Part shown: positions 2,560-26,522 of the stretch, piece by piece | Layout of the letters: the number at the start of each line of letters is the position of its first letter | Position numbering within the stretch: position 1 is the stretch's first letter | From: a virus | Length of the DNA: 36,840 nucleotides | Strand: one strand, 5' to 3' | IMG/VR virus record: IMGVR_UViG_3300021956_000029 | Coordinates: 1-36,840 of that record | Translations under genes and position numbers: made by a program | Notes under the pieces: generated by a model | What the model saw: the letters and a program-made list of their open reading frames with translations, nothing else | Told to the model about the DNA's origin: nothing | The model's database searches: none

Positions 2560-4248
2560 ATGCCGATCATTGACCATCCCAAGTTTGGGCCGACCGAGTT
2601 TCCCGACTCAATGAGTCAGGATGAAATCATTGCCGCCTTGAAGAAGATGGACGCGCAAGCGATGTCTTCAACTCAAGGCCCAACGGCAGAGCAGCTCATG
2701 CGCGATCCCGCCATGCAGGCCGCAATTGCTCGCGCTGGCGGTGGAACCATTGTGCCCGGCCCCGGCATCAGCGCAGATGCGGCAAAAGCGATTGCTGGTA
2801 TGGGCGTTGAGGGTGGTCTTACCGCAGCAGGACAGGCCGCTGGAATGGCCTTTGCTGGCCCTCCTGGCGCATCTGTGGGCGGGGCGATAACCGCTCCTAT
2901 CGGATATGCGTTGAACAAGCTAATCAAAGGCGAAACCCCAACCATGGGTGGAGCTGCTGGTTCAGCAGTCATGGGCGCAGTGCCTGGATCGCCTTTGGCT
3001 GGCCTTGGCATGAAGGGAATGGCCAAGGAAGGCCTTAAGCAGATTGGCGCGGGCCTTGGCGCAGAAACCGCCGAAGCGTTGGTTGAGGGCAAGGCTCCCA
3101 CGGCCCAAGGCGTTGCCGCTCGTACCGGAGGCGCGATGATCGGACTTATCGGCGGTAAGGCCTTTGATTTCGGTCAGGCAGCCGACCGCCAGACCGCCAA
3201 GGAAGTGACGCAGCTTTTCTGGGACGATGCGCTGAAAAAGGCGCAGGAAAAGGGCTTGGCCGTTCTTCCGTCCATGGCAAATGGCGTGAAGCTGAACAAG
3301 CTGCTTGAGTCGATGGCTGGCAAGACCCGCACGATTGCCGAGATCAACGATCTCAACAACGAGCTGTTCACCACGCTCACCATGCAGGCGGTTGGTCTTC
3401 AACCGCAGCTTGGCGTGCAGACCAAGAAGATTCTGGGTCAGGCCGTTGAGGAAGCCGCTCGTCCATACGCTGAGATCCGAGCCCTTGCCCAGAAGGCCGA
3501 GGCCGACCTTGTCGCGCTCAAGAAGAACCGCCTTACGGCTTCCAATGAGCATGAACTGAACGTCCAGATGGCTGACCCCGAGTTTGTTCGGGAATCGTCC
3601 GCTTTGGCCAAGAAGGCTTCCGTGGACGTGGACAAGTACCGCCTGACGCAGGAAAAGGCCAACAACTACCTGAACTCAACCTCTGCTGCCGAAAAGGAGC
3701 TTGGGAAGAAGTATCAGGAGGAAGCCGCTGGCTACTTGAAGGACATTGAAAGCGGCCTCAAGGAAATGGGTCGTGAGGACTTGCTTAACAAGTTCCAAGC
3801 GGCTCGCAAGCGTCTGGCCCAGCTTGGCGAGGTGGAGCAGGCTCTGACGCCTGGCGGCACGGTGGACATGGCCAAGTTGCGCCGGTCAGCCGAGTCGGGC
3901 ACGCCCTTTACTGGCGACCTGAAGACGCTGGCGATGTTCGCGTCCGATCCTCGCTTCAGATATGTCACGCAATCCAATCTCCGCCTTCCTCCTTCGGAAA
4001 TGGGCGGGATACAGGAAGTTGGACAAGAAATGTTCCGTACGCCGATTGGATCGTTGATTCAGAGTCCGTTCTATCAGCGCACGATGGCCCAGCCTTCGTA
4101 TACGGCCATGCCCGACTTCGTGAGCCGATTCATGAAGACTGCCACGCAGAGTGAACTAGACCAGCGTTTGAGCCAGCCAAACAGCCTGCTTCAGTTCTAC
4201 CAGCAGATTTATCCTCGCAAGCCCGAACAGCAGACTGCTAAACCCTGA
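2560..4248 (+). CDS. Probable internal virion protein with Gly/Ala membrane-like segment
   Basis: 562 residues. I take the ATG at 2560, one base after the preceding stop, because the residues further upstream in this frame only overlap the previous gene. Residues 13-32 (FPDSMSQDEIIAALKKM) match a short N-terminal motif common in phage internal virion and lytic proteins, of the form FPdgms.eeI..al. Residues about 75-125 are a glycine-zipper-like hydrophobic stretch (GGLTAAGQAAGMAFAG and on) that could insert in a membrane. The remainder is helical and charged. The likely role is a DNA-ejection protein that contributes to a channel. No catalytic lytic motif is visible. Confidence 0.7.
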   Translation: MPIIDHPKFGPTEFPDSMSQDEIIAALKKMDAQAMSSTQGPTAEQLMRDPAMQAAIARAGGGTIVPGPGISADAAKAIAGMGVEGGLTAAGQAAGMAFAGPPGASVGGAITAPIGYALNKLIKGETPTMGGAAGSAVMGAVPGSPLAGLGMKGMAKEGLKQIGAGLGAETAEALVEGKAPTAQGVAARTGGAMIGLIGGKAFDFGQAADRQTAKEVTQLFWDDALKKAQEKGLAVLPSMANGVKLNKLLESMAGKTRTIAEINDLNNELFTTLTMQAVGLQPQLGVQTKKILGQAVEEAARPYAEIRALAQKAEADLVALKKNRLTASNEHELNVQMADPEFVRESSALAKKASVDVDKYRLTQEKANNYLNSTSAAEKELGKKYQEEAAGYLKDIESGLKEMGREDLLNKFQAARKRLAQLGEVEQALTPGGTVDMAKLRRSAESGTPFTGDLKTLAMFASDPRFRYVTQSNLRLPPSEMGGIQEVGQEMFRTPIGSLIQSPFYQRTMAQPSYTAMPDFVSRFMKTATQSELDQRLSQPNSLLQFYQQIYPRKPEQQTAKP

Positions 4249-4252
4249 TTCC

Positions 4253-4408
4253 ATGCCCTTTAAGTCCAAATCCCAGCAGCGTGCCTGCTACGCCTCCAAA
4301 GGCTTCGGCGGCGGCGTGAATTGCGCCGAATGGGCCAAGAAAACCAACTTCGGCAAGCTCAAGGAGCGAGTCCAGAAATCCACCATCACCAAACACAAAT
4401 CCTTCTGA
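4253..4408 (+). CDS. Small basic virion-region protein, 51 aa
   Basis: ATG at 4253 is four bases after the upstream stop and TGA ends at 4408, two bases before the next ATG, so the gene fits exactly between its neighbours. The product begins MPFKSKSQQRACYA and ends in a Lys-rich tail. This opening resembles a group of very small phage proteins starting PFKSKaQ.R.cYa. It contains two cysteines and a FGGGVNC segment. Function is unknown. Confidence 0.7.
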   Translation: MPFKSKSQQRACYASKGFGGGVNCAEWAKKTNFGKLKERVQKSTITKHKSF

Positions 4409-4410
4409 TT

Positions 4411-4689
4411 ATGGCCAAGAACATGTCACCCTCCGTCACCCGTCCTGTATCCATTGAAACGCTTGGCGTTGCCCAGCGCGGCCCGATGAGCGGCTCCCGC
4501 AAGCTGCCCGGCTCCAACTACGGCCCCTGCCAGTGCGAGCCCACGAAGGAGGACCGCATTGAGGGCATTCCCGACAAGGTGCTGCGTCCGGCCCGCAAGG
4601 AAGTCGATGTAAAGGACATCGGTAACCAGATGAAGTACAAGGACAAGGGCTACGCCACGGTGGAGCCTCTTTCGGCCCCGAACGAATAA
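4411..4689 (+). CDS. Hypothetical protein, 92 aa
   Basis: I take the ATG at 4411, just after the preceding TGA; the upstream in-frame codons overlap the 51-residue gene. The product starts MAKNMSPSVTRPVSIETLG. It is polar, contains Cys-Gln-Cys near the middle and has no membrane segment. Its place between ejection-type genes and the lysis cassette suggests a minor virion component. I do not recognise a family. Confidence 0.65.
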   Translation: MAKNMSPSVTRPVSIETLGVAQRGPMSGSRKLPGSNYGPCQCEPTKEDRIEGIPDKVLRPARKEVDVKDIGNQMKYKDKGYATVEPLSAPNE

Positions 4690-4703
4690 AGCGTTACGCG
4701 GCC

Positions 4704-5120
4704 ATGGGCCTCCTTGACATCCTGTTCAACGCTGCCGGTGGTGGAGTCCTTGGCAGCGCGCTCCATTGCGTCACTGACTACTTTGACACGAAGAACAAGG
4801 TGACGATGCTGAAGGCCCAGATGGACGCGGCGGCCAACACGTCGGCCTGGAACGCCTTTCAGGAGAGCCAGAAGGACAGCGGGCTCAAGGAGATGCCAGC
4901 CAGCACGCCTGTGTGGGTGGTCAGCACTTATGTGCTGGTGGAAGCCTTCAAGAACGTCATGCGGCCCCTTTTGGCCCTGATTGCCATTTGCATCATCGCT
5001 GCCGTCTATGCTGGGGCGGACGCGGCGGCTAGGGCAGGAATGGTCAATGAACTGACCTTTGGCTGCTTCACGGCGGTGTTCTGGTATTTTGGCGCAAGAT
5101 ACTCTCGGTCAACCAAATAA
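4704..5120 (+). CDS. Holin-like membrane protein
   Basis: 138 residues. Two hydrophobic segments are visible at about residues 86-104 and 114-130, with a weaker amphipathic N-terminus. Met-Arg-Pro just before the first and WYFGARYSRSTK at the end resemble the three-helix holins found in gene transfer agents and some phages. The gene sits four bases upstream of a second small membrane protein, as in holin/accessory lysis cassettes. The inferred role is to permeabilise the inner membrane at lysis. No endolysin gene could be recognised beside it. Confidence 0.6.
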   Translation: MGLLDILFNAAGGGVLGSALHCVTDYFDTKNKVTMLKAQMDAAANTSAWNAFQESQKDSGLKEMPASTPVWVVSTYVLVEAFKNVMRPLLALIAICIIAAVYAGADAAARAGMVNELTFGCFTAVFWYFGARYSRSTK

Positions 5121-15282: not shown

Positions 15283-15526
15283 AGCCAAATGGGTTGGGGT
15301 TTACTTTAATTTGAACCGCATTTATTCGCTCAACTGGGCAATCCAAATCTTTGGCAATCTGCTCCTTTAGGCTGGGCAGCAAAGCAATGGCCGCTTTCTG
15401 ACCGTCTTGATGTCCATATTCAATAAACCATGTCCTTACCGTAACTTCACCAAAAACCCTCAGCCTAGTGGGTGTTTCCCAATACCAGCCCCATTCCATC
15501 CTGTGTCTTGGTAGTTCGTCATTCAT
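15275..15526 (-). CDS. Hypothetical protein, 83 aa
   Basis: ATG at 15526 overlaps the methyltransferase stop (ATGA). The product MNDELPRHRMEWGWYWETPT continues with a beta-rich half and a helix (LKEQIAKDLDCPVERINAV). Its first six residues nearly repeat those of the downstream regulator (MNDDLP). Function is unknown. Confidence 0.65.
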   Translation of the reverse strand: MNDELPRHRMEWGWYWETPTRLRVFGEVTVRTWFIEYGHQDGQKAAIALLPSLKEQIAKDLDCPVERINAVQIKVNPNPFGYE

Positions 15527-16587
15527 TGCTGGAAGCGGGCTGAGAGGACGCGAAAAGCTCGTTCTGCCGTTGCGGGAACAACTCCGTTGCCGAGAAGCCG
15601 GAGCTCGTCGGTGCGATTGTCGCAGGACACGCACAGCTTGGCATAGTCCAGCCCACCGGCAGGCCCATCAAAGTTTCGACCCACCGAGGATTCAGTTTGG
15701 CTCCGTTCGTCATTGACCCGGTTTGGCCGTGAAGCCCCAAGTCCTTGCCCCGTGCCAACCGTGTTTCCGCTTTCTCTTCGCCCCTCACTCTCGGTGTCGC
15801 CCAAGCTGCCATTTGCCTGCTCAAGGTCACTTTCCCCTCCTCCAGACGTTTCTCTGCGACCTCCGGAGTTGAGGCTAGATGGCTGTCTCCCATTATCGGC
15901 GTTGCCCAGTTGGGCTTGTCCAACGACTCTTGGTGGCTCCCATCCGAACTGCGGCTGGCCTGGACGACTTGGCCAAGCTCGCCCCTCCTCGCCATCCCCG
16001 ACAAGCAATTGCTGGCCTGGCTCGTTCCATTGATGCGATAGGAGTCCTCGTTCGCTGACACGGTGGGCCAAGATGAAGACGCGCTTTCGCTGGTGAGGCG
16101 CGCCAACTTCAGCCGCGCTAAATAGTCCCCACGTTGCTGCATAACCGAGGCTTTCCAGTTCGCCAATGACTTCTCGGAGTCCAAGGCTGATGTGTCCTTC
16201 GACGTTCTCAAAGAAGCACACGGCTGGCTGCATTCTGCGAATTCCATCTGCAATGAAGGGCCAGAGATGCCGTGGGTCTGCTGTGCCGAGCCGCTTTCCG
16301 GCTGCTGAAAACGGCTGGCAAGGGTAGCCGCCAGACAATATACCCACCTTTCCGTGAAAGCTGTCCCATGGGAAGGTTTTAAGATCCGTCCAGATAGGTG
16401 CCGCGTCCAAGAGTCCCGCTTCCATCTTTGCAACCAGGTTCGCGCAGGCGAAGGCTTCGATCTCGCTAAAAGCGACTGTTCGCAGATTTGGGAGCACTCG
16501 CTTGAGTCCAAGGTCAATGCCTCCGTATCCGGCGCAAAGGCTGACGTGTGTAATTGTTTTGGTAGTATCCAGGTCATTGCTGTTCAT
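15523..16587 (-). CDS. DNA cytosine-5 methyltransferase
   Basis: 354 residues with the C5 methyltransferase motifs in order: I (SLCAGYGGI, 16-24, AdoMet binding), IV (GGYPCQPFS, 86-94, catalytic Cys90), VI (FENV, 126-129), VIII (HQRKRVFILA, 165-174) and X (LGNGVVPATA, 332-341). The target-recognition region lies between about 180 and 325 and is Gly/Ser/Arg-rich with little structure. No partner restriction enzyme is visible, so it is likely an orphan enzyme that protects phage DNA or alters regulation. It is coupled to genes on both sides by ATGA overlaps. Confidence 0.92.
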   Translation of the reverse strand: MNSNDLDTTKTITHVSLCAGYGGIDLGLKRVLPNLRTVAFSEIEAFACANLVAKMEAGLLDAAPIWTDLKTFPWDSFHGKVGILSGGYPCQPFSAAGKRLGTADPRHLWPFIADGIRRMQPAVCFFENVEGHISLGLREVIGELESLGYAATWGLFSAAEVGAPHQRKRVFILAHRVSERGLLSHQWNEPGQQLLVGDGEEGRAWPSRPGQPQFGWEPPRVVGQAQLGNADNGRQPSSLNSGGRRETSGGGESDLEQANGSLGDTESEGRRESGNTVGTGQGLGASRPNRVNDERSQTESSVGRNFDGPAGGLDYAKLCVSCDNRTDELRLLGNGVVPATAERAFRVLSARFQQ

Positions 16588-20766: not shown

Positions 20767-20815
20767 GCGGGCACGTTGTGCAGATGATTTGCGTCTTTCC
20801 ACCGTTCTATGGGCT

Positions 20816-20905
20816 AACGTCTGCCAAATAAGACGTTCTTATGGCATAGCGTCAGCCATATCGGACGCTTTGCATCCTGCCTTATGCGTGCGTTGATAAA
20901 CGCAT
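20816..20905. promoter_or_regulatory. Three consecutive 22-bp dyads upstream of the terminase operon
   Basis: Arms AACGTCT/AGACGTT at 20816-20837, AGCGTC/GACGCT at 20848-20869, and ATGCGT/ACGCAT at 20884-20905. Each dyad is 22 bp, and they start 32 and 36 bp apart. The first two share the core CGTC.GCCA.AT..GACG. The last dyad contains the ATG of the 63-residue gene in its right arm. Likely operator sites, a packaging-recognition site, or RNA hairpins that control translation. Confidence 0.55.
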
Positions 20906-21095
20906 GATTACGCAGCTCAAGGAAAACGAGTGGATGGTGGAACCCAACGACTCCGATTGCAGGGAGTATGCGCGGCTGCACATCAAGGCGATGAAGACCG
21001 GAGTGAACATTGACGGCCAAGGCGTCATTCCTTGGGAGGATTTGCTGGCCAAGAAGATCCGTGTACTGGCCAAGGAGCTCAAAAATGGCCATTAA
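20904..21095 (+). CDS. Small protein before the large terminase, 63 aa
   Basis: MITQLKENEWMVEPNDSDCR begins a helical, charged protein with VIPWEDLLAKKIRVLAKELK at the end. It overlaps the terminase start by 11 bases. By position it could be a small packaging subunit, but it is shorter than usual for one. Its start codon lies in a hairpin. Confidence 0.55.
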   Translation: MITQLKENEWMVEPNDSDCREYARLHIKAMKTGVNIDGQGVIPWEDLLAKKIRVLAKELKNGH

Positions 21096-23613
21096 GACCT
21101 ATCTGGCAGACCAGTTTCAGCCCGACTTCGGCATTCCTTGGGTGCCCATACCCAAAAAGGAAGAGCTGATGAGCTGGCCGCAGGAAAAGCTGGTGCAGTA
21201 CTTGGCTTTCCGCGAGGAATGCGACCGTAACGCGGTGAACAATCCTGTCGGTCAGGGCTGGATCATGCCTTCGTGGAAGAAGGTGATGGACAACTGGAAG
21301 AAATACCCAGTCATCGTCATCCTGGGTGGCAACCGTTGTCTGCGCGGCGACACACTCATCTACGATCCTGTCCTGAATGTGCATCGCCGCATCGACAGCA
21401 TCAAAGGCAAGCACCACGTCTATGCCTGGGATGGAAAAAAGCGGGTCATAGCCACTGCTGAACAGCCTTTTCAAAAAGGTCGCGGTATGATGGCGGAAGT
21501 GACCCTTTCAACTGGTCAACGATTTGAAGCTTCTCTTGAGCATCGCGTGCTTTCCGCAGCAGGGACTTGGCGCGACGTTGGGTCGTTGCGAGTTGGATCC
21601 TCGCTTTTCCATCCTCAGTCCATTTTGGGCAGCGGCCCTTCAAATCAACCTTCAGGTGCTCCGCATTTGAACGAAACAGCACAAGGTTTGACAGCCGATT
21701 GTCATCCTTCTGGCCGTTTATGTGATGAACAACCTCAGTCGGCAAAAGATAGCGGCCAAGGTGCTTCTCCATCACCAGCCGATGCTCCTGAATGTACTTC
21801 TCCTTCCGGTAATAACCGCCGTTGGCCTTTATTCGTCGCGTCTCATTTAGGCGACGGCATTCAGGATGATCTGGCGTGTAAATATGGATATATCCGTGCC
21901 GATCGACAATCCTGCCGCCCTTCCATTCTGGATGGCCTTCGCCAGCTCGCGGCCCGGTTCGTTGGCATTTTATCCCATGCTTTTTGCAAACCTTGTAAAT
22001 CAGCTTCGCTGTTATGCGACCGTCCAGAGTTTGGCGAAGAGAGTCTGCAATCTGTTGCTGAGTCTCTCCTGAAGCAATTCGAGAGCGGATCTCCTCTATC
22101 GGATAGTTTATTGAGTCATGGTGTGGCATACGTCACAGAGATACGTTTGACGGGAATAGATGTCAAGTGGGATATGACTATTCCCGCCTATGGCTGCTAT
22201 GAAGCTGGCGGTGCGCTTCACCACAACTCCGCAAAATCAACGCTCGCCAGCCGTTTGTGCGTGTGGGCCGCAGGAACCATCCCCAACGCCGAGGTAAGAG
22301 CCTATCACGTCAACGAAGACCGCTCCATTGAGGACCAGCAGCGCATGATTTACGATGCGTTACCGGTAGGCATCAAGGATTTGCCCACCAAGAAGGGCAT
22401 CGCGCACTCGCTTCAGTACTCACAGAAGAACGGCTTTACCGACAACATCTGCATTCTGCCTCCGCTCAAGGCGGGCTACCGTGGCGGCCAGATCAAGTTC
22501 GCCAACTACCGCCAGTATCAGGCCGACGCGCAGGTGGCTGAAGGATTCAAGTCACATTTCATCTGGTGTGACGAGGAATGTCCTCAGAAACTCTTTGAAA
22601 CCCTCCAATACCGAACCATCGACTACCATGGCCGCATTGTACTCACTTTTACTACTCTGTCAGGATGGACTCCGCTGGTGCAGGACATTCTGGGAAAAAC
22701 ACGCACGCTCGAAAGCAAGCACGCGCCCCTACTGGGCCGACCAGTCCCAGTCATCCAAGAGTCCCTTAGCCGACCCGGCACCGTCATCTACTATTTCCAC
22801 ACGGAAGACAACGCGTTCATCGACACGTCGGACTTCATCGCCAAAATCAAAGGCCGTCCGAAAGACGAAATCCTTGCTCGCGCCTACGGCATCCCTACGA
22901 AGAGCGTTTCGTCGGCATTCCCAGGCTTCAACAAGGAAGTAAACGTCATCCCACATGACAACCTGCCGTGGAAGAAAGACCCCGCGTACAAGGTCACGCG
23001 ATACATGGCCGTCGATCCCGCAGGCTCCAAGAACTGGTTCATGCTGTGGGTCGCTATTGACGCAAGCAACACATGGTGGGTGTACCGTGAGTGGCCTGAT
23101 TATGACGATTGGGCGATTGCGGGCAGCACGGCTGAAGGCAAACCGGGCCCAGCTCAACGAGGCACTAAAAAAGGGATTCAAGACTACGTCGAACTCATCA
23201 AGAACTCGGAAGACGGCGAAATTATCTACGAAAGGCTGATTGACCCGCGTCTGGGAGCAGCCGAAAAGCAGACCGCCGAGGGAGCGTCCACCATCATTGG
23301 CGATCTGGACAAGTTTGACATGACGTTCATCCCCGCGCCTGGCGTCCACATCGACGATGGCCTCCAGCTCATCAACAACCTGCTGTCCTACGACGACACG
23401 AAGCCGATTGACTCGCTGAACGCCCCAAAGCTGTTCATCTCCGACCGCTGCACCAACCTCATTTACGCCATGAGCGAGTACACGGCCAAAGGCGGCAAGG
23501 ACGAGGCGACAAAGGACCCGATTGACTGCCTGCGTTACCTATGCGTCTCCAAATGCGAGTTTTACGACGAGAATGACGCGCCCATGGAAGGCGGACGCAC
23601 GTTCTCCTATTAG
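21085..23613 (+). CDS. terL: Terminase large subunit interrupted by an intein
   Basis: 842 residues as translated. I take the ATG at 21085 (MAIKTYLADQ). Residues 1-84 are the N-extein ending GGNR; residues 85-381 are an intein; residue 382 resumes SAKSTLASRL, so splicing restores a Walker A GGNRSAKST. Walker B is FIWCDEE (D496-E497). The nuclease domain begins with AVDPAGS (Asp644) and ends near DPIDCLRYL. The spliced product would be 545 residues, usual for the family. It drives ATP-dependent packaging and cuts concatemers. The portal gene follows 39 bases downstream. Confidence 0.93.
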   Translation: MAIKTYLADQFQPDFGIPWVPIPKKEELMSWPQEKLVQYLAFREECDRNAVNNPVGQGWIMPSWKKVMDNWKKYPVIVILGGNRCLRGDTLIYDPVLNVHRRIDSIKGKHHVYAWDGKKRVIATAEQPFQKGRGMMAEVTLSTGQRFEASLEHRVLSAAGTWRDVGSLRVGSSLFHPQSILGSGPSNQPSGAPHLNETAQGLTADCHPSGRLCDEQPQSAKDSGQGASPSPADAPECTSPSGNNRRWPLFVASHLGDGIQDDLACKYGYIRADRQSCRPSILDGLRQLAARFVGILSHAFCKPCKSASLLCDRPEFGEESLQSVAESLLKQFESGSPLSDSLLSHGVAYVTEIRLTGIDVKWDMTIPAYGCYEAGGALHHNSAKSTLASRLCVWAAGTIPNAEVRAYHVNEDRSIEDQQRMIYDALPVGIKDLPTKKGIAHSLQYSQKNGFTDNICILPPLKAGYRGGQIKFANYRQYQADAQVAEGFKSHFIWCDEECPQKLFETLQYRTIDYHGRIVLTFTTLSGWTPLVQDILGKTRTLESKHAPLLGRPVPVIQESLSRPGTVIYYFHTEDNAFIDTSDFIAKIKGRPKDEILARAYGIPTKSVSSAFPGFNKEVNVIPHDNLPWKKDPAYKVTRYMAVDPAGSKNWFMLWVAIDASNTWWVYREWPDYDDWAIAGSTAEGKPGPAQRGTKKGIQDYVELIKNSEDGEIIYERLIDPRLGAAEKQTAEGASTIIGDLDKFDMTFIPAPGVHIDDGLQLINNLLSYDDTKPIDSLNAPKLFISDRCTNLIYAMSEYTAKGGKDEATKDPIDCLRYLCVSKCEFYDENDAPMEGGRTFSY
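21337..22227 (+). mobile_element. Intein in the terminase Walker A motif (297 aa)
   Basis: It starts with Cys (CLRGDTLIYDPV, block A) and contains block B with the TxxH-type His (ASLEHRVLSAAG, His at 21541). It ends with block F (VKWDMTIPAYGCYEAGG) and block G LHHN, followed by Ser as the +1 nucleophile. The sense strand has no LAGLIDADG or HNH motif; the region between blocks B and F is Ser/Pro/Ala-rich and looks non-natural as protein. That region is covered by an HNH endonuclease gene on the opposite strand. Confidence 0.92.
21446..22129 (-). CDS. HNH homing endonuclease, antisense within the intein
   Basis: 227 residues, read opposite to the terminase and wholly inside the intein. Residues 10-50 look like a DNA-binding helix-turn-helix (EEIRSRIASGETQQQIADSL). 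Residues 115-159 are a textbook HNH_3 domain: EHRLVMEKHLGR, VVHHING (133-139), NRLSNL (144-149), EHL. The C-terminal 60 residues are basic helices, encoded opposite intein block B. The wobble base of each codon in one gene faces the second base of a codon in the other, so both strands are tightly constrained. There is no Shine-Dalgarno sequence before ATG 22129. Confidence 0.88.
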   Translation of the reverse strand: MPHHDSINYPIEEIRSRIASGETQQQIADSLRQTLDGRITAKLIYKVCKKHGIKCQRTGPRAGEGHPEWKGGRIVDRHGYIHIYTPDHPECRRLNETRRIKANGGYYRKEKYIQEHRLVMEKHLGRYLLPTEVVHHINGQKDDNRLSNLVLFRSNAEHLKVDLKGRCPKWTEDGKARIQLATTQRRAKSLLRKARDAQEKLQIVDQLKGSLPPSYRDLFEKAVQQWL

Positions 23614-23652
23614 AGCTTGCCATAAGCTGGGCTAATCCTTAACGCCCATCCC

Positions 23653-25800
23653 ATGAGTTCCCTAGAAGGCGGTAACAGCATTTCACCCATGGACATCGGC
23701 TTGCAGCTTGCGCCTGCCGAAAACAAGGGACCGGATTTCAACGCCCTTAAGTACGCCTTTGAGGACGCGGTACGCAACAACCAGCCGTACATCGACCAAT
23801 GCCGCCTCAATTACGAGACGCGCTACGCCATCTGGAACGGTCAATCGGCTGACGGCAAGAAGCACTACCGCGAAGGCAGTCGCGTAAGCCCCACCCCGTG
23901 GGACGGCGCGTCTGACCTGCGTGTCTTCCTTGTTGACAACATCATCAACAAGAAGGTGGCGATGCAGTGCATGGCGTTCAAGCGGGCCAACCTTTCCGCA
24001 GTGCCTGTAGAGGGCAATGACTTAGCCCGCGCCAATGATGTCAGCAACTTCATGCGCTGGCTCATCAACACGCAGATTCCCGAGGTGGACCGCGAGATTG
24101 AGCTGGCTGCCAACTATCTGAACGAGAAGGGCATCGCGGCGATGGGTGCCTTCTGGGAGAAGCGGCGCGAGAAGACGCTGGTGAACGTGCGTCTGCAAGA
24201 TCTCCAGCAGCAGTTCCCGCAAATCGACATTCAGGCGTTGGTCAATGACGAGAACGCGGCGTCCGACCTCAAAGCCATCTTCCAAGAGCAGTACAACTGC
24301 TCGGCCAGCAAGGCGGGCAAGATGCTGAAGGAGCTGCGAGACACGGGCGAAACCACCGTGCCGATGGACGGCCCCGAGCGTTCGTATCCGGTGCTGCGTG
24401 CCTTCAACCTCGACGAGAACCTGTTCATCCCGTCGTTCTCGCTGGATCTGGAGAACGTGCCCGGCATATACCGCGTGGAATACTTCAGCGCGGAGCAGCT
24501 TCGTGCGATGGTGAATACGGACGGCTGGGATGCGGAATGGGTGGAAAAGGCCATCAAGACCGTTCGCGGCAAGCTCATCACCATCTCGCCGTCCGAGTAC
24601 CTTCAGCCCATCAGCCGCTCGTTCGTCTACACGCAGCAGCGGTTCACGGACAAGATCGGAGTCGTGTACGCCTATCAGCGTTTGTCCGACGAGGATGGCG
24701 TGCCTGGCATCTATTGCACCGTCTTCAACCCGATTCTGCCGCCTGACAGCAACCAGTCTGGCTATGCCAAGAGCAGCCTGCTGGGCTACGCGCACGGCCA
24801 GTATCCGTTCACGCTGTTCCGCCGCGAGTATCTTAGCCGCAAGCTGCACGACAGCCGTGGTCTTCCCGAGCCGGGCAAGCCGTGGCAGGACCAAATCAAG
24901 AGCCACAAGGACGCCCGCATTGACGCGGCCTCCCTTGGCGTGCTGCCGCCGCTCTGCCATCCGCAGGGCCGCCCGCCTGGCCGCTGGGGTCCTGGCTCGC
25001 TCATCTCCGAGCGTCGTCCTGGCGAATACCACTACGCCGACCGTCCGATTCCCGACATGAACACGGACGACTCCGAGAACCGCCTTGAGGCGTCGTTCAA
25101 GGAGTACAACGGCTTTGCCAGCAACGAGGGCGATCCCGCCATCGACCCGATCTTCAACCAGTTTGAGATTGATAAGTTCCTCACCTCGCTGGCCAAGACG
25201 TTCCGTCAGGTCTGGAAGCTCTACAAGCAGTACGGCAACGAGCAGGTGGCTTTCCGCGTAATGGGCGTCCGCACCGCCGACCCGACCCTGTTCAGCAAGG
25301 GCGATGTCAACGAGGACTTTGACTTCTACCTCGCGTGGGATGTCCAGAGCCCCGACTTCAAGAAGATGTCGGAGAAGTGGACCGCCATCATTCAAGGAGC
25401 GCAGACCCTCGACCGCAACGGCGTCGTCAATTGGGCCGAACTCTGTCAGGCGTTCATCTCGTCCATCGACCCGAACATCGCCGAGCGCATCATCCAGCCG
25501 GTCAGCGAGGGCCAGCAGAAGGTGGTCAACGACGAGCACAACGATCTGGCGCAGATTTTCGCGGGCATCCCAAAGAACATCCGAATCGGCACGCCTCCGC
25601 AGCTCGGCTTGCAAGTCATCCAGCAGTACTTGCAGCAGCCTGACGTGCAGCAGCGTTACGCGCAGGACAAGTCGTTCCAAGAGCGCATTAACGCCCGCGC
25701 CAAGCAATACTCCTTCCAGCTAGAGCAGCAAAAAAATGCTCAAATTGGACGCCTTGGAGCAGCAATGCCGGGGCCAATGTCAGCCACAACCAATCAATGA
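23653..25800 (+). CDS. Portal protein
   Basis: 715 residues. The N-terminal region has NYETRYAIWNGQSADGKKHY and SPTPWDGASDLRVFLVDNII, a pattern typical of P22-like and related podovirus portals, followed by long helices (wing and stem) and a Gln-rich C-terminal barrel. Twelve copies would form the DNA channel at the capsid vertex. It sits between the terminase and scaffold genes as expected. The last 29 residues (687-715, SFQLEQQKNAQIGRLGAAMP and on) use A-rich codons, unlike the rest, and are duplicated at the end of the next gene. Confidence 0.85.
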   Translation: MSSLEGGNSISPMDIGLQLAPAENKGPDFNALKYAFEDAVRNNQPYIDQCRLNYETRYAIWNGQSADGKKHYREGSRVSPTPWDGASDLRVFLVDNIINKKVAMQCMAFKRANLSAVPVEGNDLARANDVSNFMRWLINTQIPEVDREIELAANYLNEKGIAAMGAFWEKRREKTLVNVRLQDLQQQFPQIDIQALVNDENAASDLKAIFQEQYNCSASKAGKMLKELRDTGETTVPMDGPERSYPVLRAFNLDENLFIPSFSLDLENVPGIYRVEYFSAEQLRAMVNTDGWDAEWVEKAIKTVRGKLITISPSEYLQPISRSFVYTQQRFTDKIGVVYAYQRLSDEDGVPGIYCTVFNPILPPDSNQSGYAKSSLLGYAHGQYPFTLFRREYLSRKLHDSRGLPEPGKPWQDQIKSHKDARIDAASLGVLPPLCHPQGRPPGRWGPGSLISERRPGEYHYADRPIPDMNTDDSENRLEASFKEYNGFASNEGDPAIDPIFNQFEIDKFLTSLAKTFRQVWKLYKQYGNEQVAFRVMGVRTADPTLFSKGDVNEDFDFYLAWDVQSPDFKKMSEKWTAIIQGAQTLDRNGVVNWAELCQAFISSIDPNIAERIIQPVSEGQQKVVNDEHNDLAQIFAGIPKNIRIGTPPQLGLQVIQQYLQQPDVQQRYAQDKSFQERINARAKQYSFQLEQQKNAQIGRLGAAMPGPMSATTNQ

Positions 25801-26522
25801 GCCTTCTTGAAGAGCTTGGCCTTAAGGGGCCATATTCTAAGTTGAGCAGAGCGGATCAATTGCTCTATCAACGCGAATACCGCAAAAGAAATGCGGAGCT
25901 TTATCGTGAGCGCAACAGGCTTAAGTATGACCCTAAAAAAGCGGCTGAATCGTGGAAGCGTTACAGCGATAAAAATCGGGAAAAACTTAGGGCAAAGCAA
26001 CGCGAGCAATACGCGATAAAAGCCAAGAGTCGCACGGTTAAGAGAAAGTTTCTTACCGACGAAGAACGTAAGGAGTATCAAAAAACATACTCAAATCGTC
26101 GTTATCACTCAGATCCTCAGTATCGAGTGGCTTTGAGGATGCGCACCCGACTCAATGAGTTGCTGAAGAAACGCAATCAGAAGAAATCCAAGACCCTAAA
26201 GATTGATAAAAAAGGGCTCGTTGAATGGATTGAGTCAAAGTTTTTGCCGGGTATGACTTGGGCAAATCATGGAAAAGAGTGGCACATTGACCACATCATT
26301 CCTTGCGCTGAATTTGACCTGACTGATCCCAGGCAAGTTGAACAATGCTTTGGCTATTTTAATCTTCAGCCTCTTTGGAAACGAGATAACATCATCAAGA
26401 GCGACAAGACTTTGAAGCAACAAGAGCTTTCCTTCCAGATGCAGCAGCAGCAGAACGCCGTCACTGGCCGTCTAGGTGCCGCGATGCCTGGCCCAATGCC
26501 CGCTTCCACCAACAATGCCTAA
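25711..26522 (+). repeat. Duplicated portal 3' end flanking an inserted HNH gene
   Basis: The segment 25711-25800 (end of portal) and the segment 26430-26522 (end of the HNH gene) both start TCCTTCCAG and encode nearly the same tail, SFQ...GRLGAAMPGPM.....TN. Their DNA has drifted, mainly in codon choice: the first copy is A-rich, the second GC-rich like the portal body. The second copy also keeps the overlap with the gene at 26515, suggesting that it is the original portal end. Confidence 0.75.
25797..26522 (+). CDS. HNH homing endonuclease inserted at the portal 3' end
   Basis: 241 residues; ATG overlaps the portal stop (ATGA). The N-terminal 110 residues are Lys/Arg/Tyr-rich repeats typical of DNA-contacting regions of phage homing nucleases. 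HIDHIIP (163-169), CF.YFNLQPLWKRDNIIKSDK (184-203) form the HNH active site and metal region. Codons are A/T-rich compared with neighbours, a sign of transfer. Residues 212-241 are not nuclease; they are a second copy of the portal C-terminal tail fused in frame. Confidence 0.88.
   Translation: MSLLEELGLKGPYSKLSRADQLLYQREYRKRNAELYRERNRLKYDPKKAAESWKRYSDKNREKLRAKQREQYAIKAKSRTVKRKFLTDEERKEYQKTYSNRRYHSDPQYRVALRMRTRLNELLKKRNQKKSKTLKIDKKGLVEWIESKFLPGMTWANHGKEWHIDHIIPCAEFDLTDPRQVEQCFGYFNLQPLWKRDNIIKSDKTLKQQELSFQMQQQQNAVTGRLGAAMPGPMPASTNNA

Follow-up and report, generated by a model that had tools for sequence, protein, structure and literature searches.

An intein-like insertion in a phage terminase gene with a probable HNH homing endonuclease gene on its antisense strand

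In the viral DNA analysed here (36,840 nt, hereafter the window), the gene for the terminase large subunit (TerL) is best explained as harbouring a mobile intein with a homing endonuclease gene antisense to its splicing domain, a reading to which we give a probability of roughly 0.88. Sequence comparisons show that the HNH gene has its own conserved start, is under purifying selection of its own and lies in the insertion loop of the intein, and that near-identical phages either have or lack the whole intein-HNH unit, which is precisely inserted; we further infer cleavage by the HNH protein, splicing of the intein and antisense transcription. In the mechanism we propose, translation of the TerL precursor would continue across the complement of the HNH gene, giving a floppy linker, and the intein would then splice itself out, restoring TerL. 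The HNH protein would be made separately, from an antisense transcript whose promoter would lie within the C-terminal splicing half, and would cut the intein-free TerL P-loop of a co-infecting phage, whereupon repair would copy the intein together with the HNH gene.

A probable intein in the Walker A loop of TerL

On the plus strand, positions 21085 to 23613 form one open frame encoding an intein-interrupted TerL precursor of 842 residues; the TerL assignment is supported by a weak match to Terminase_6N, slightly below the Pfam cutoff, and by relatives that share the same site. The interruption is a 297-codon segment (21337 to 22227, plus strand) running from C1 (codon 21337-21339) to N297 (codon 22225-22227) and inserted in the Walker A loop, with the junctions GGNR/CLRGDT...GALHHN/SAKST (slashes mark insertion points here and below). 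The strand stays open as TerL throughout, and the sequence-only reading of this DNA, which had described a sense frame continuing through a terminase intein with both splicing halves present, was correct on this point. The expected splicing residues C1, H69, D279, H296 and N297 were invariant in an alignment of 30 representatives, and the window insert has an N-terminal nucleophile, the block B His and the HHN/S end. Its C-terminal splicing half (VKWDMTIPAYGCYEAGGALHHN; 22159 to 22227, plus strand) contains blocks F and G, in which W278, D279, Y288, H296 and N297 are invariant and pLDDT is 91-97.

An AlphaFold model of the intein, built from the family alignment, had pLDDT values mostly >90 for residues 1-95 and 260-297 and values of ~30 for residues 96-259, and its top Foldseek matches were the Ssp DnaB, Npu DnaB and Mtu RecA mini-inteins (E-values for these DnaB and RecA mini-inteins of 3.5e-7 for the best and 2.3e-6). 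No canonical sense-frame endonuclease was found between blocks B and F: residues 96-259 of the sense product are disordered and have no family match, and this central part of the product is a linker that lacks structure and changes quickly.

We also considered that the insert could be an intron, or an insertion that is retained and never spliced, like the ShiLan domain described below. The intein protein had no Pfam family match and intein models matched it only sub-threshold, as such an origin would have it; as the NCBIfam intein N-terminal model, too, matched the window only under its cutoff, our assignment draws on sequence blocks, fold and alleles. All three argue for an intein: the splicing residues are invariant, the Hint fold resembles that of mini-inteins, and the same site in other phages holds mini-inteins that consist of the splicing domain only. 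In addition, a retained insert would break the P-loop, and there was no Rfam match at gathering scores over 20800-24000, i.e., no group I/II intron catalytic RNA core in that region. We consider a non-intein insert very improbable, and 21337-22227, which is precisely inserted by comparison with empty alleles, appears from its sequence to be an intein with a splicing-competent-looking Hint domain in the TerL P-loop.

An HNH endonuclease gene on the opposite strand

The minus strand of the intein holds a 227-residue open reading frame with an ATG start (21446 to 22129, minus strand), for which a full HNH domain had been claimed before any database was searched. The profile searches bear this out, with a clear match to Pfam HNH_3 (E-value 9.9e-10, 38.4 bits against a cutoff of 24.8) and matches to many PHROG HNH endonuclease families (best 1.3e-21). 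By Pfam coordinates the HNH_3 motif spans residues 116-152 (21674 to 21784, minus strand), with H116, H136, N144 and N148 invariant among the 27 invariant columns of the family alignment. Residues 9-50 (21980 to 22105, minus strand; YPIEEIR...IYKVCKKHG) form a three-helix, HTH-like and presumably DNA-binding region, as judged from conserved columns and from the helices of the AlphaFold model (11-19, 24-34 and 41-50). The mean pLDDT of this model was 90, and the closest fold to it was that of the phage homing endonuclease I-HmuI (probability 0.93, E-value 0.23).

This genome holds antisense ORFs longer than the HNH gene, e.g., one of 561 residues at 24022-25707 that is probably a chance frame; open length alone is therefore weak evidence for a gene, and each frame was tested separately. 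We also observed a terminator-like hairpin with a T run over the HNH stop codon (21440-21456, minus strand), which could end the HNH transcript, such matches being common by chance. Elsewhere in the window (15519-16587, minus strand), two same-strand ORFs of 352 and 354 residues overlap almost completely in different frames; one resembles a DNA cytosine methyltransferase and the other is probably a chance frame.

Selection and coding cost in the overlap

The overlap has the phase described in the sequence-only reading: the wobble base of either frame, HNH or sense, is paired with position 2 of the other. HNH relatives were gathered from IMG/VR with the window HNH as query and then with an alignment (best 80 per search of ~580). 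In all 85 distinct HNH proteins examined, which ranged from 77% down to ~40% identity to that of the window (32% for a cultured Pectobacterium lineage), the opposite intein frame was open and in the same phase, while the remaining two frames opposite HNH nearly always had stops. As a control, the free-standing HNH relatives L157 and L159 had 5-11 stops in each of the three opposite frames. Antisense HNH genes are widespread in terminase P-loop inteins, beyond the window phage.

Such an arrangement had been thought hard to maintain by chance, and codon reshuffling agrees. When the HNH codons of the window were synonymously reshuffled, the sense frame acquired a mean of 8.8-9.5 stops and none of 5,000 frames was open; when the sense codons were reshuffled, the antisense frame was still open with P = 0.001-0.007. 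Across 31 representatives an average of 6.1 sense stops was expected and none was observed. The geometry of the overlap bars HNH codons ending in TT, CT or TC ahead of a codon starting with A, and there were no such forbidden pairs among 5,183. At constrained positions Ile was encoded by ATA in all 140 cases (169 of 883 elsewhere) and Phe was absent; together with the lack of forbidden pairs, this indicates that the HNH gene is written so that its complement stays open. These reshuffling tests exclude chance as the origin of the paired open frames.

Substitution patterns showed which frame is selected where, with a sharp switch at the HNH boundaries. In 298 sequence pairs, changes at codon positions 1/2/3 were distributed as 15/11/74% in both the N-terminal and the C-terminal splicing half and as 18/8/74% in the extein. 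The HNH overlap, in which the wobble base of HNH falls on sense position 2, had 20/60/20%. In the group with 295-residue inteins the profile switched at intein nt 240 and 780, near the ends of the HNH ORF (250-772). The group of the window had a nearly flat profile at intein nt 112-270, under its longer HNH tail, as expected if both products matter. HNH had dN/dS values of 0.11 and 0.12, the sense frame opposite it had 1.85 and 2.37, and the splicing half and extein had 0.06-0.14; these values were computed as for single frames despite the overlap and from pairs that share ancestry and are non-independent, and they serve only to contrast the frames.

The overlap accordingly divides into two stretches. 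At ~21448-21606 (both strands), the C-terminal helices of HNH lie over the N-terminal splicing half including block B, an extension that had been read from the sequence, and the near-flat codon-position profile marks this as the only stretch under real dual constraint. Over ~21607-22101 (both strands), sense position 2 is the most variable, sense dN/dS is 2.37 and sense pLDDT is ~30; here selection on amino acids acts in the antisense frame only, and the sense frame is a disordered linker that is merely kept stop-free. The proposal that both strands are functional thus holds insofar as both must stay open, but the middle of the sense product is such a linker.

The abundance of long antisense ORFs in this genome could still suggest that GC-rich DNA has left a frame open by chance across from a conventional intein, or that the ORF is a decayed pseudogene. 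Neither would account for the profile matches, the conserved HNH residues and the pLDDT 90 model, and both are refuted by purifying selection in the antisense frame, as seen in the dN/dS of 0.11-0.12 and the codon-position switch; we regard this explanation as having next to no chance of being right.

Alleles, mobility and distribution

Among 80 TerL relatives of the window, 69 had an empty site and 10 carried an intein. In a second TerL group (n = 80) there were 59 empty sites, 15 inteins that were long or truncated by a contig end, and six mini-inteins of 130-136 residues; the long inteins checked carry the antisense HNH gene and the mini-inteins do not. The element is therefore an in-frame insertion in a conserved host motif for which intein-free alleles exist. 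Mini-inteins of 130-136 residues without HNH occupy the same TerL site in L162, L246, L254-L256, L271 and L306, and a contig near-identical to the window (C-extein 97.9%) has a 132-residue mini-intein instead. The splicing-half DNA of L285 and L306 is 84-85% shared, the difference between the two being the HNH segment. A possible remnant of the HNH tail antisense in the L306 mini-intein was dropped as a candidate, as conservation of the sense splicing domain could explain the resemblance.

Several comparisons point to horizontal movement. L169 and L171 differ by the intein while their C-exteins are 99.3% identical, and their mismatches are concentrated in the first 100 nt, crowding by the insertion site in the pattern that co-conversion would leave. 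The inteins of L173 and L182 are identical over 891 nt in exteins that are 9% apart. In L148 and L152, antisense-HNH inteins occupy a second point of Walker A (GK/T), a few residues downstream of the site used in the window.

Neither a megablast search of the window region against isolated phages nor a tblastn search of isolates with the intein protein gave a match; isolates were reached through the HNH query. They comprise eight Pectobacterium/Dickeya phages and Pseudoalteromonas phage PHS3, and the antisense-in-intein layout was read directly in the isolates Ymer, Setonix and PHS3. Phages PHS3 (L322, KX912252.1, locus 2733-4711) and AL, which grow on one host species, Pseudoalteromonas marina, are intein-plus and empty, respectively, with an exact 900-bp difference. 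The GenBank entry of PHS3 has the antisense HNH gene (protein APC46236.1) and misses the intein, TerL being given as a shortened protein of 391 residues; in the annotation of phage Ymer, TerL is 'hypothetical' and HNH is unannotated. A profile scan of prokaryotic genome contigs with the HNH alignment confirmed no relative, and plasmids yielded distant HNH domains only.

The unit might have homed formerly and the present pattern be a relic, the HNH protein no longer cutting. Mini-inteins do show that HNH loss is possible, but recent movement in several lineages is shown by inteins identical over 891 nt despite a 9% difference between their exteins, by co-conversion-like scars and by a patchy distribution, and HNH dN/dS remains ~0.1; we give a relic only a slim chance, somewhat better than that of a non-intein insert.

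Elsewhere, the window has an endonuclease VII-like gene (PHROG 1035; 25797-26522, plus strand) downstream of the portal gene. The 3' end of this gene is a copy, now diverged, of that of the portal gene (89 nt, 71% identity), which is what would be seen had a homing gene introduced or retained a duplicate of its target's end.

A candidate antisense promoter

A candidate promoter for the HNH gene lies at 22138 to 22166 (minus strand), with TTGACA (22166-22161) and TATCTC (22143-22138) separated by 17 nt and the latter 8 nt before the HNH ATG. An antisense TTGAC -35 element inside the C-terminal splicing half was present in 28 of 30 representatives against 8.3 expected from synonymous reshuffling of sense codons, a count that is weakened by the shared ancestry of the representatives, and the mean promoter score was 9.33 against 7.69 (sd 0.13) in reshuffled sequences. 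A generic promoter scan gave no excess and did not list the window site, so the candidate stands on this family-wide test; the window has a poor -10 (TATCTC), and the promoter element is missing from the Ymer lineage. In most members a -10-like hexamer ends 6-9 nt ahead of the HNH ATG and no Shine-Dalgarno sequence is visible, a spacing that is compatible with a leaderless mRNA, while in L076, L078 and L079 the promoter is farther upstream and there is a clear Shine-Dalgarno sequence.

More broadly, these observations might define a class of phage inteins in which the homing endonuclease is independently transcribed antisense from a promoter within the C-terminal splicing half, perhaps as a leaderless transcript, with host-type early transcription possible before the late terminase gene, with splicing that tolerates the linker and with an HNH gene recoded to be stop-free; we hold the odds of this fuller model to be about even.

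A promoter-like element directed against TerL could also suit a real antisense gene that now serves the phage, as an accessory nuclease in packaging or as an antisense regulator of TerL, and does not home. Terminase-adjacent HNH proteins aid packaging in some phages (PMC11855218), and phage homing endonuclease genes can give antisense transcripts or act as transcriptional autorepressors (PMC2988022). Set against this are the empty site in 69/80 and 59/80 TerL relatives, the difference of PHS3 and AL by the unit, and the movement of HNH together with the intein. The packaging role was rejected, as HNH is not a regular companion of the terminase and most close relatives lack it. We judge a gene in the service of the phage unlikely, though it is the least improbable of the alternatives considered; a homing endonuclease remains the preferred reading.

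Relation to known systems

Textbook inteins carry a nested endonuclease in their sense frame. Dalgaard et al. (1997) reportedly described inteins with an HNH-family endonuclease, which combine intein and HNH as the window does, but with the HNH fused in the sense frame. The fractured genes of Dassa et al. (2009) are said to have split inteins with a separate endonuclease gene between the halves of a broken host gene; there, as here, the endonuclease is a separate protein, whereas the window intein is contiguous.

The mycobacteriophage TerL P-loop inteins TerL1-a and TerL1-b likewise lie in the terminase Walker A motif, and splicing and endonuclease activity have been shown for some (PMC5050341). 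Their endonuclease belongs to the LAGLIDADG family and is fused into the intein in its sense frame, such nucleases having been shown for two members, and the text searched reports no antisense gene (PMC5050341). The ShiLan domain of a phage methylase resembles the window in that a homing HNH gene overlaps an open but disordered host-frame product, and its HNH gene has no Shine-Dalgarno sequence, leaderless initiation having been proposed (PMC11855218). There, however, a different frame of the same strand encodes HNH, a splicing domain is lacking and the insert is believed to remain part of the host protein (PMC11855218), whereas the window has both splicing halves and an antisense HNH gene. 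The Didymium group I introns Dsq.L2066 and Dir.S956-2 also carry an antisense endonuclease gene in a self-splicing element, with a proposed promoter of its own, but these are RNA introns in rDNA with a His-Cys endonuclease, and their opposite strand need not be an open frame (PMC9548176).

TerL P-loop inteins, antisense endonuclease genes in introns and same-strand hidden HNH genes are therefore known, and an antisense endonuclease in a working-looking intein is apparently new. We did not find an antisense endonuclease gene in an intein in the open-access literature, a coverage outside which lie a preprint on non-canonical actinobacteriophage inteins (10.1101/2025.01.02.630785) and Gorbalenya 1998 on non-canonical inteins, either of which could be prior art.

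Discussion

A cycle of gain and loss has been proposed for homing elements, and the empty, HNH-bearing and mini-intein states found at this TerL site fit it. Our results indicate that the functions of intein and nuclease can be divided over the two strands of a single DNA segment and stay so divided down to ~40% protein identity, one stretch carrying both a selfish nuclease gene and the linker of the intein that hides it. The layout is an antisense overlap that occurs naturally and in replicate, and as one of its frames has no task but to stay free of stops, it lends itself to measuring what overlap costs. Existing annotation overlooks the intein, the nuclease or both, as in PHS3 and Ymer, and homing can be tested directly with the cultured plus and minus phages that share a host species. 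For the phages concerned, the antisense layout would uncouple expression of the nuclease from that of the host protein, which could be an advantage if the host gene is late.
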